Source: Draconibacterium orientale (GTDB lineage: Bacteria > Bacteroidota > Bacteroidia > Bacteroidales > UBA12170). From it: a DNA stretch of 45,413 nt. Position numbers and translations under genes: made by a program. The DNA lies in NCBI GenBank assembly GCA_020718205.1, contig DYSN01000020.1, positions 1-45,413 of the forward strand, read 5' to 3'. Below the pieces are notes generated by a model. It worked only from the letters and a program-made list of their open reading frames with translations, ran no database searches and had not been told where the DNA came from. Below are positions 43,244 to 45,413 of this stretch, piece by piece. Within the stretch, counting starts at the first letter, position 1. Every line of letters starts with the position of its first letter.

Positions 43244-44269
43244 ATGAGCACTTATATTCTGGGAATAGAATCATCTTGCGACGACACTTCAGCTTCTGTA
43301 ATAAAGGACAACATTATTCTATCCAATATTATAGCCAATCAGAAAGTTCACCATAAATATGGCGGGGTGGTTCCTGAGTTGGCTTCCAGATCGCATCAGC
43401 AGAATATTATTCCGGTTATACACAGTGCACTTATGGAAGCAAATATAAATAAAAATCAGCTCCATGCTATAGCTTTCACCCGAGGCCCCGGACTTTTGGG
43501 AAGTCTTTTGGTGGGCACTTCTTTTGCCAAGTCATTTGCCATGGGATTGAAAATTCCACTGATAGAAATCGACCATTTACAGGCTCATATTCTGGCTCAT
43601 TTTGCTCAAAAACCCAACCAACCTAAAGATACCCCCAATTTCCCCTTTCTTTGCCTCACAGTTTCGGGCGGGCATACCCAAATAGTGCGTGTAGACAGCT
43701 ATTTCCAAATGCAAATAATTGGCCAAACCATTGACGATGCAGCGGGCGAAGCTTTCGATAAATCGGCCAAAATAATGGGCCTACCCTATCCGGGCGGACC
43801 TGTTATCGACAAACTTGCAAAATCCGGTGACCCCAACCGATTTGTTTTCCCCATTCCCCAAATTCCCAACCTGGATTATAGTTTTAGCGGACTCAAAACT
43901 TCGATTCTATATTTCCTTCGCGATCAATTAAAACTGGACAATGATTTTATAGAAAAAAACAAGAACCATATTGCTGCCAGCATTCAGCACACCATTGTAA
44001 AAATTCTGCTTAAAAAGCTGGTAAAAGCTTCGGAAAGTACAGGTATTAAAGAAATAGCCATTGCTGGTGGAGTGAGCGCCAATAGCGGGCTGCGAACTGC
44101 TATTAAAAATGGGGAGAAGGAATATAGCTGGAAAACCTATATTCCGAATTTTGAATTTACCACCGATAATGCTGCCATGATAGCCATAACGGGGCTTTTC
44201 AAATATCGCGAAGGCCTTTTCAGTGACCAAAAATCAGCACCCTACACCCGCTCCGTATTAAAAACCTAA
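43244..44269 (+). CDS. tsaD: tRNA N6-adenosine threonylcarbamoyltransferase
   Basis: TsaD (Kae1/YgjD) transfers threonylcarbamoyl from TC-AMP to A37 of ANN-decoding tRNAs. The 341-residue ASKHA-fold protein shows GIESSCDDTSASV at the N-terminus, the metal-binding HLQAH with His111 and His115 exactly as in the family, FTRGPGLLGSLLVG, CLTVSGGHTQIV, IDDAAGEAFDKSAKIMGLPYPGGP and FTTDNAAMIA with the third metal ligand Asp. It is complete and should be active with TsaB/TsaE encoded elsewhere. The tyrosine phosphatase gene follows after 12 bases, likely on the same transcript. Confidence 0.97.
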   Translation: MSTYILGIESSCDDTSASVIKDNIILSNIIANQKVHHKYGGVVPELASRSHQQNIIPVIHSALMEANINKNQLHAIAFTRGPGLLGSLLVGTSFAKSFAMGLKIPLIEIDHLQAHILAHFAQKPNQPKDTPNFPFLCLTVSGGHTQIVRVDSYFQMQIIGQTIDDAAGEAFDKSAKIMGLPYPGGPVIDKLAKSGDPNRFVFPIPQIPNLDYSFSGLKTSILYFLRDQLKLDNDFIEKNKNHIAASIQHTIVKILLKKLVKASESTGIKEIAIAGGVSANSGLRTAIKNGEKEYSWKTYIPNFEFTTDNAAMIAITGLFKYREGLFSDQKSAPYTRSVLKT

Positions 44270-44281
44270 ATCAAAATAGCG

Positions 44282-44752
44282 ATGATTAAAATATTAATGA
44301 TTTGTCTGGGAAATATTTGCCGTTCGCCTATGGCCGAAGGAATAATGAAGTCAAAAATCATGCAGCATGGATTGAATGCGGAAGTTGACAGCTGCGGCAC
44401 AGCCAATTATCATGTGGGCGACAGTCCTGACTACAGAGCTCAAAAAACCTTAAAAAACCAGCAAATTGACATTTCATCGCATCTGGGCCGACAATTTCAG
44501 GTTGAAGACTTCGACAAATTCGATTTTATTTATACCATGGATGAGTCAAACCACAACAATATATTGGCTTTGGCCAGAAATGCAGCTGACCAGCAAAAAG
44601 TTAAAATGATACTCGACGAAATTTATCCTGGTAAGAATTTAGATGTCCCCGACCCATATTATGGAAGTCTGAGCGATTTTCAAAGCACTTTTAACCTGCT
44701 CGATGAGGCTTGTGACGCGATTGTTGACAAGGTTAAAAAATTAAAGGTGTGA
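44282..44752 (+). CDS. Low-molecular-weight protein tyrosine phosphatase
   Basis: A 156-residue cytoplasmic LMW-PTP. The phosphate-binding loop CLGNICRS gives nucleophile Cys8 and Arg14 in the CX5R motif, with Asp124 in VPDPYYG as the general acid. Such enzymes dephosphorylate tyrosine kinases of capsule synthesis or arginine/tyrosine phosphoproteins; no kinase is adjacent, so the target is open. Its last codons and stop lie inside the hairpin at 44741-44768, which on the minus strand is the terminator of small-RNA cassette A; the two transcripts would therefore overlap by about 17 bases in antisense. Confidence 0.93.
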   Translation: MIKILMICLGNICRSPMAEGIMKSKIMQHGLNAEVDSCGTANYHVGDSPDYRAQKTLKNQQIDISSHLGRQFQVEDFDKFDFIYTMDESNHNNILALARNAADQQKVKMILDEIYPGKNLDVPDPYYGSLSDFQSTFNLLDEACDAIVDKVKKLKV

Positions 44753-44768
44753 GAAACCACACCTTTAA
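44741..44768 (-). terminator. Intrinsic terminator of cassette A
   Basis: Minus strand TTAAAGGTGTG, loop GTTTCT, CACACCTTTAA: a perfect 11-bp stem followed by TTTTTT (plus A-run 44735-44740). On the plus strand no T-tract follows, so it would be a poor terminator for the phosphatase gene, whose stop codon it contains. Confidence 0.75.
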
Positions 44769-44770
44769 AC

Positions 44771-44793
44771 ACAAACCATAATTAACCAAAAAA
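44771..44793 (-). repeat. Shared leader element, copy A
   Basis: A 23-base sequence, minus strand TTTTTTGGTTAATTATGG plus TTTGT, identical at 22 of 23 positions to 45341-45363 and in the same orientation and place (between promoter and hairpin). Confidence 0.8.
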
Positions 44794-44813
44794 TATTAAT
44801 ATAAATTAATACC

Positions 44814-44844
44814 CAAATATACATGGTGTATGATAACTTGTCAA
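44814..44844 (-). promoter_or_regulatory. Full consensus promoter of cassette A
   Basis: Minus strand TTG (plus CAA 44842-44844), 20 bases, TATATTTG (plus CAAATATA 44814-44821). It matches both promoter elements and the spacing expected for Bacteroidota. Confidence 0.65.
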
Positions 44845-45304
44845 GAAAATGAGCAAAAAACTTTATAAAATTTTAATTTTTTTTAAGAAATCCAGTGTTT
44901 TCAATACTTCTGGAATGACTATAGATGCCATTCATAAAGATTTTATGCACAAACACTTATAAATTTTTGTATTAGTTAAAGCACCTTTCTAAATTATTTA
45001 TTAAACATTCGCAGTATTAATATCAAATTTTTTGAACTCTAAAACCCAAATTTCTTAAATTATCATTAATACTTGCTTTTCGTAAAATAACAATAAAATT
45101 CACTAAGCATACCACAATGCAACTTGCCATCAAGACTTTGAATGATAATAATAATATCTCCTGACCTTTTCAACAGGAAAAAGAGAAAATACCACATTTC
45201 GACTGCCCTCCCTGCAAAAATCTATAAAATCCAAAACCATCGTTGAAAACAACATTTGCCCCCAATTTTATAACTCTAATCAACCGGGCAAATTCAAATG
45301 ATAT
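44845..45304. other. AT-rich intergenic DNA between cassettes A and B
   Basis: About 460 bases with no convincing ORF on either strand and no tRNA or rRNA. The longest minus-strand frame, from an ATG at 45350, would run through the cassette B terminator for about 60 codons and has no coding character. I see no further copy of the shared leader element here. Confidence 0.5.
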
Positions 45305-45311
45305 AAAAAAA

Positions 45312-45336
45312 AGGTGTCGAATGAAATCCGACACCT
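45312..45336 (-). terminator. Intrinsic terminator of cassette B
   Basis: Minus strand AGGTGTCG, 9-base loop, CGACACCT, then eight T residues (plus A-run 45305-45312). Confidence 0.8.
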
Positions 45337-45340
45337 CAAT

Positions 45341-45363
45341 ACAAACCATATTTAACCAAAAAA
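45341..45363 (-). repeat. Shared leader element, copy B
   Basis: Minus strand TTTTTTGGTTAAATATGG plus TTTGT; differs from copy A at one base (plus 45351 T against 44781 A). The hairpins that follow share the AGGTGT/ACACCT start but differ inside, so structure is kept while sequence changes. Confidence 0.8.
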
Positions 45364-45375
45364 TTCAATATGGGT

Positions 45376-45405
45376 CAAAAATAGTATTAAATGGTATTAC
45401 CTCAA
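45376..45405 (-). promoter_or_regulatory. Full consensus promoter of cassette B
   Basis: Minus strand TTG (plus CAA 45403-45405), 19 bases, TATTTTTG (plus CAAAAATA 45376-45383). Both elements and the spacing match the Bacteroidota consensus. Confidence 0.65.
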
Positions 45406-45413
45406 CTAACTAT

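Follow-up and report, generated by a model that had tools for sequence, protein, structure and literature searches.

A candidate family of paralogous small RNAs with a near-invariant linker in uncultured Bacteroidales

Results

Two minus-strand cassettes of like layout lie at the end of a Draconibacterium orientale contig (Table 1). The window, meaning the whole stretch of 45,413 nt analysed here, is the complete contig C146 of a 393-contig genome (99% complete, 6% contamination), and the cassettes, A and B, fall within its positions 44735–45405. Each combines a promoter, a 23-base element, TTTTTTGGTTAAWTATGGTTTGT, and a terminator hairpin. As a preliminary description of this DNA had claimed, the promoters have the form TTG-N19/20-TAnnTTTG (TTG-N20-TATATTTG in A, TTG-N19-TATTTTTG in B), the element is identical at 22 positions with the W base alone differing, and both hairpins start with AGGTGT and have unlike interiors. 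With up to three mismatches allowed, the 23-mer matched the window twice and none of 100 shuffles; a shorter 17-base part averaged 0.51 matches per shuffle at the same tolerance, with 11 of 100 shuffles reaching two, and both of its window matches are exact. A further cassette that the same description had placed near 21.6 kb fell away as a member: a terminator-like hairpin stands there, and the element is absent at up to three mismatches.

No minus-strand ORF of at least 60 aa overlaps 44735–45405, in agreement with the earlier statement that neither A nor B is followed by a minus-strand gene. The stretch of about 460 bases that separates the B terminator from the A promoter (44845–45303) contains neither an ORF of 60 aa nor an Rfam match. 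Across the window, ARAGORN found no tRNA or tmRNA gene and Rfam gave no match at gathering cut-offs. The neighbouring tsaD and ptp genes were identified by protein search, and ptp, which converges on RNA A, ends within the RNA A terminator.

The end of C146 (window 45280–45413) overlaps the start of a second contig of the same genome, C130 (L002 1–130), in near-identical sequence. The two are probably strain variants, and within the overlap the B terminator carries a compensatory change from U-A to C-G. C146 would then extend towards a GlmM-like gene.

Table 1. Positions of genes and RNA features in the window
Feature	Position	Strand	Details and basis
tsaD	43244–44269	+	Precedes ptp within the conserved neighbourhood
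ptp	44282–44752	+	Low-molecular-weight protein-tyrosine phosphatase; converges on the A/B locus in five genomes
RNA A terminator hairpin and U-tract	44735–44768	-	Hairpin 44741–44768; sequence, fold
RNA A invariant linker (23-base element)	44771–44793	-	Predicted mostly unpaired; element search, family alignment, fold
RNA A 5' hairpin, predicted	44793–44812	-	Fold (z −3.95, for the whole RNA)
RNA A promoter	44814–44844	-	TTG 44842–44844, 20-base spacer, TATATTTG 44814–44821
RNA B terminator hairpin and U-tract	45304–45337	-	Hairpin 45311–45337; sequence, fold, covarying stem
RNA B invariant linker (23-base element)	45341–45363	-	W = A; element search, family alignment
RNA B 5' hairpin, predicted	45346–45373	-	(CC)ATATT with AATAT(GG); fold, kept in aligned B copies
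RNA B promoter	45376–45405	-	TTG 45403–45405, 19-base spacer, TATTTTTG 45376–45383

Copies in related genomes take three forms that join different predicted 5' hairpins to the same linker. Subtype A has an ATTAAT..ATTAAT hairpin, the linker and a AAAGGTGTG..CACACC or CGCACC terminator, and subtype I, which lies at other loci, has a GAAAT..ATTTC hairpin, the linker and a GAGGTGCGA..TCGCACC terminator. In subtype B, the linker itself supplies AATAT(GG) as the partner of (CC)ATATT, and the predicted hairpin takes in part of the linker; the CC may stand before the transcript start. Folding thus leaves the linker open in A and I and partly closed in B. The predicted RNAs measure 66–103 nt, and each of five tested folded better than all its 200 shuffles (z −3.8 to −5.8). 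A 20-nt core within the linker is invariant in aligned copies; the exceptions are the W base and, in B, rare T/C changes. The predicted 5' hairpin, the third subtype and the synteny of the loci are features beyond those of the preliminary description. A mini-ORF in A and I (ATG GTT TGT GTT stop) was considered and set aside, because the B frame has no stop there and the ATG lies inside a predicted stem.

Promoter motifs precede the copies consistently. TAnnTTTG occurs within 80 bases upstream of all 21 copies examined, and in 17 of them TTG stands 19–21 bases before it; among random 80-base pieces of the window's own genome, 80 of 2000 hold TAnnTTTG. TTGAC and TATATTTG are unchanged across the three aligned A copies.

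The linker core recurs throughout the window's GTDB family, and far beyond chance. Searching for the 20 bases TTTGGTTAAWTATGGTTTGT with up to two mismatches returned 27 places in 11 of 11 family genomes, all of one genus, against one place for a reversed-pattern control. A hairpin follows on the 3' side at 21 of the 22 places with no or one mismatch (L053 being the exception) and at none of the five with two. A covariance model of our own gave 22 matches at E < 1e-8, again in 11 of 11 genomes; 13 of these had built the model, and nine, including the three A copies, had not. We count about 20 distinct loci, because C130 and C146 of the window's genome, and likewise the contig ends C112 and C185 of genome G010, each appear to represent a single locus. 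Each genome carries one to three loci; subtype I is present in 10 genomes, B in seven and A in three. Homologous cassettes in related genomes, and their recovery by a covariance model, had been named beforehand as checks on the cassettes, and both gave a positive answer.

Wider searches point back to the same group. Across 84,980 genomes the exact core appears in 12 stretches, nine of them in contigs entitled Bacteroidales bacterium (seven isolates) and one in Draconibacterium orientale; the other two, in a Mucilaginibacter and an Actinomycetota metagenome-assembled genome, have no hairpin and look like chance matches. No viral contig holds the exact core. An order-wide pattern search with up to two mismatches matched 32 of 198 genomes, only two of them from the genus, and none of the 28 loci inspected in the 30 others (L056–L083) had a hairpin context. 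The covariance model matched 25 of 344 genomes of the order, four of them from the genus. In the 21 others the model gave 22 matches, all weak (E 9e-6 to 0.01), and none was seen at a syntenic place; about three would be expected at this E limit, so composition or remote kinship has some part in them. We also ran the model on the place upstream of ffh in the order. Of 41 genomes searched, 40 have ffh; the 30 loci scanned (29 outside the window's own genome, two with little upstream sequence) held no RNA, and the controls L032 and L040 were detected. In the window's own genome the RNA falls outside the stretch scanned at ffh.

Conservation is concentrated on the RNA-coding stretch. Over seven subtype I copies (21 pairs), mean identity reaches 0.95 across linker and terminator and drops to 0.48 over the preceding 60 bases and 0.40 over the following 60. 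Six B copies average 0.78 inside (15 pairs), 0.57 upstream (10 pairs) and 0.43 downstream, and the three A copies range over 0.80–0.93 inside against 0.38–0.58 and 0.43–0.50 outside. The genomes represent separate species, as Ffh proteins are 79–97% identical among six of them.

Changes within the stems preserve pairing. In the model alignment of 13 sequences (12 distinct; three A copies were left out because a first all-type alignment had misplaced them), 98.3% of terminator stem cells are paired. In five of its 10 pairs both bases have changed; shuffles give 2.4 such pairs, and five of 500 do as well as the real alignment. For further pair types the alignment does not exceed its shuffles (203 of 500). 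The subtype I 5' hairpin is 97.3% paired, with two of 11 pairs changed on both sides, in an alignment of seven of the 10 copies (the near-identical or identical copies of G003 and G006 and the G010 copy, of another hairpin length, were dropped); its signal is modest, because 12 of 500 shuffles reach it for the whole structure. At the level of sequence, these comparisons show the RNA-coding stretch to be the unit under selection and its terminator stem to be held by compensatory change. The earlier proposal of a structured RNA family under selection is supported by the compensatory stem changes, the conserved promoters and the homologous cassettes.

The loci occupy recurrent genomic positions. 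Judged from protein pieces, all 10 subtype I loci have the same kind of gene upstream, which in the window's genome (G000) is peptidase-like, with short weak matches to M23-type endopeptidases. On the 3' side, ffh is the next gene in five genomes; in G000 it shares the contig but lies about 4 kb off. G001 has other ORFs within 1.5 kb, and in three genomes the contig ends. At the A/B loci, G000, G002, G004, G007 and G010 have ptp as convergent neighbour, G001 and G006 have other genes in its place, and B is flanked on its opposite side by xseA in G001, G004, G006, G007 and G008. Ffh, XseA and the GlmM-like mutase were named from one example each and their other copies by likeness. In the window's own genome, an opposite-strand gene that reads as T9SS-like sits between subtype I and ffh (L001, G000:C118 33216–38557).

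The family is new: Rfam 15 holds no match to it at its cut-offs. None was found for the window and nine related loci at gathering cut-offs, as the preliminary description had asked to be checked, and none at E up to 1 in a permissive scan of the window and eight related loci. Weak matches, including McaS, FopS, rteR and the greA leader, came up only when short stretches were scanned. Cassette B scored 18.2–19 bits against the FopS model RF04319 (E 0.41 to 4.4, depending on stretch length; cut-off 56), in an alignment spanning GGUUAA and the terminator. McaS, an enterobacterial family, matches B equally weakly and with lower E-values, so such scores mean little. With the FopS model, none of the 11 genomes passes 56 bits and several other places outscore the RNA loci; those inspected look like ordinary sequence or terminators. 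We therefore rejected FopS as the identity of these RNAs, the score being far below the cut-off and no genome passing it. Nor is the family named in the titles and abstract openings of the literature searched.

FopS (BTncRNA_FopS) of Bacteroides thetaiotaomicron offers a close comparison (PMC11697453): it too consists of paralogous sRNAs with Bacteroidota-type promoters, and in both families an intrinsic terminator is preceded by a conserved, U-rich segment that contains GGUUAA. In the alignment with B, GGUUAA and U-richness are common to both, a resemblance that may or may not extend to the FopS R1 seed; outside GGUUAA the linkers differ. FopS has 12–15 copies, whereas the new family has one to three loci per genome, and FopS begins with a single-stranded 5' seed stretch followed by the terminator, whereas folds predict a 5' hairpin here. 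The FopS partner is the RRM-1 protein RbpB; in the new family's genomes, some of them incomplete, an RRM_1 protein appears in two of 11 and in none of the other nine, the window's own included. FopS pairs with the start regions of SusC-like mRNAs, and no clear sign of SusC targets emerged from the word searches at starts described below.

GibS resembles the new family in part of its layout. It is intergenic and has a long conserved, mostly single-stranded segment and a terminator, as here (PMC7366714); its single-stranded stretch lies at the free 5' end, with two hairpins in the middle. In the new family, by contrast, the linker is next to the terminator, and the predicted hairpin comes first or takes up some of the linker.

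Several paralogs with a common recognition segment also make up the multicopy sRNAs known from Bacillota and Pseudomonadota. Their relation to the new family was checked through the Rfam scans. One of them, LhrC, is named in PMC11697453.

Searches for mRNA targets gave no clear support to the earlier suggestion of base pairing through the T/G-rich leader. At 329 starts of the window's own genome, 26 pairing energies fell below −15 kcal/mol against 19.7 ± 5.1 for shuffled linkers, which is no clear excess. In a sampled tenth of that genome, AAACCAT, a word chosen after scanning many, occurred upstream of starts 10 times against 2.8, at the top of 105 letter permutations. Its enrichment was not clearly replicated in related genomes (7 against 3.6 at 584 starts), and four outgroup genomes gave 3 against 4.0 (586 starts). 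Candidate sites were not kept in orthologs of three gene pairs, nor in a cytochrome-c-like gene of five genomes or in pyruvate kinase of G002 and G003, the remaining matches to that enzyme being too distant or without a clear start.

Near-full complements of the linker (14 or 15 of 15 bases) occur at 33 places outside the RNAs, 27 of them within ORFs and five within 120 bases before a same-strand ORF start; inspection by eye showed no gene in which such a site recurs. The word TTAACC shows no enrichment at 330 starts (2 against 6.0) and is absent from the upstream stretches of 20 SusC-model loci, of which several have uncertain starts and one a short upstream part. Against E. coli rRNA, a stand-in for the organism's own, the linker pairs no better than its shuffles.

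Discussion

From the sequence evidence, A and B very probably belong to a real family of paralogous small RNA genes. Each appears to be a stand-alone gene, with its own promoter, no ORF and an intrinsic terminator, and conservation that stands out from the flanks, with changes that keep the structure, is what such a gene would be expected to show. We propose that they are independently transcribed, paralogous regulatory RNAs of one uncultured Bacteroidales family, each made from its promoter as a 5' hairpin, a long U/G-rich linker with a near-invariant 20-nt core, and an intrinsic terminator. Once transcribed, the RNA would act in trans through its exposed linker. Its most likely mode would be imperfect pairing with mRNAs near their start codons; pairing with mRNA start regions is described for GibS (PMC7366714) and FopS (PMC11697453) of Bacteroides thetaiotaomicron. 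The 5' hairpin may have a protective role or may control how accessible the linker is. On the present analysis we lean slightly towards such pairing in trans.

The main rival to trans pairing keeps the sRNA family and makes the linker a protein-binding site, the RNA sequestering or guiding an RNA-binding protein with its hairpins as scaffolds. We consider this unlikely, if worth taking seriously. A near-invariant core of 20 nt is longer than the usual short seeds, and the complement searches yielded no conserved partner; however, a search for RRM_1 proteins brought no candidate to light, one of the RbpB kind being present in just two of 11 genomes. Length alone is no argument for a protein, since the long conserved single-stranded stretch of GibS pairs with mRNAs (PMC7366714). 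That the RNAs are distant relatives of the FopS and GibS of Bacteroidaceae, diverged past recognition, seems improbable to us. The weak match of B to RF04319, the shared promoter class and the terminator layout would fit such descent, but the equally weak McaS match, the failure of all 11 genomes to exceed 56 bits, the nine without RRM_1 and the extra predicted 5' hairpin speak against it.

It is also quite improbable that the cassettes are cis elements, acting as terminators or attenuating leaders of neighbouring genes and not as free RNAs. In five genomes the subtype I core does lie 179–238 nt before the ffh ATG on the same strand, yet ffh has a TAnnTTTG box of its own 31–40 nt before the ATG in those five, and a TAATTTTG box in G000, where the RNA is about 4 kb away. 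Since ffh has its own promoter box, subtype I is not simply its leader, and we set aside the reading as an ffh attenuator. Within the window, A and B are not followed by any minus-strand gene, and the A hairpin has no T-run on the ptp strand. Repeat or mobile element ends (REP-like sequences or an IS end), or chance, can scarcely account for the family: several similar copies per genome might suggest a repeat, but these are only one to three largely syntenic loci, viral contigs yield no exact core, phages show no match to B, and plasmid matches to A are weak and partial (39 records, none covering more than 80% of the query, best E 0.2). Chance is opposed by the single place found with the reversed pattern and by the compensatory stem changes. 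The earlier description had named an IS end or a terminator repeat as an alternative to be checked, and no sign of an IS or a dispersed repeat was found.

Returning to trans-acting RNAs, we offer a doubtful but specific extension. The family may be modular, with one fixed 20-nt recognition core set behind three 5' hairpins and different promoters; separate signals would then converge on one regulon, and in most species, those without an RRM chaperone, the RNAs would work with some other partner protein or none.

Bacteroidota sRNA biology, going by the literature surveyed, rests largely on Bacteroides thetaiotaomicron. The present family is a clear, alignable one from an uncultured Bacteroidales family in which nine of 11 genomes show no RRM_1 protein, and this raises the question of what, if anything, replaces the known chaperone there. 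It also raises the question of what the near-unchanging 20-nt core recognises, and it offers Rfam a new family complete with promoter, structure and synteny.

Several minor observations accompany these loci. A degenerate copy lies between B and ptp in genome G004 (L110 1501–1550, G004:C84; E 9.5e-4), with ATGGTTTGT and an AAGGTG hairpin kept and GGTTAAT absent. Weak model matches near position 1501 of L111, L125, L128 and L133, one in the genus and three outside it (two of those in one genus), have a T/G-rich leader and a hairpin and adjoin a similar gene that reads as a sensor histidine kinase; they are perhaps another conserved RNA. A palindrome, CG(A/G)AAACGTTTGCG, is present at five B loci beside xseA (L034, L042, L046, L047 and L048), in the −35 region of the B promoter as worked out for L034 only; no such palindrome was found in B of G000 or G002. 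We take it to resemble a LacI-family operator, and it may place B under repressor control.
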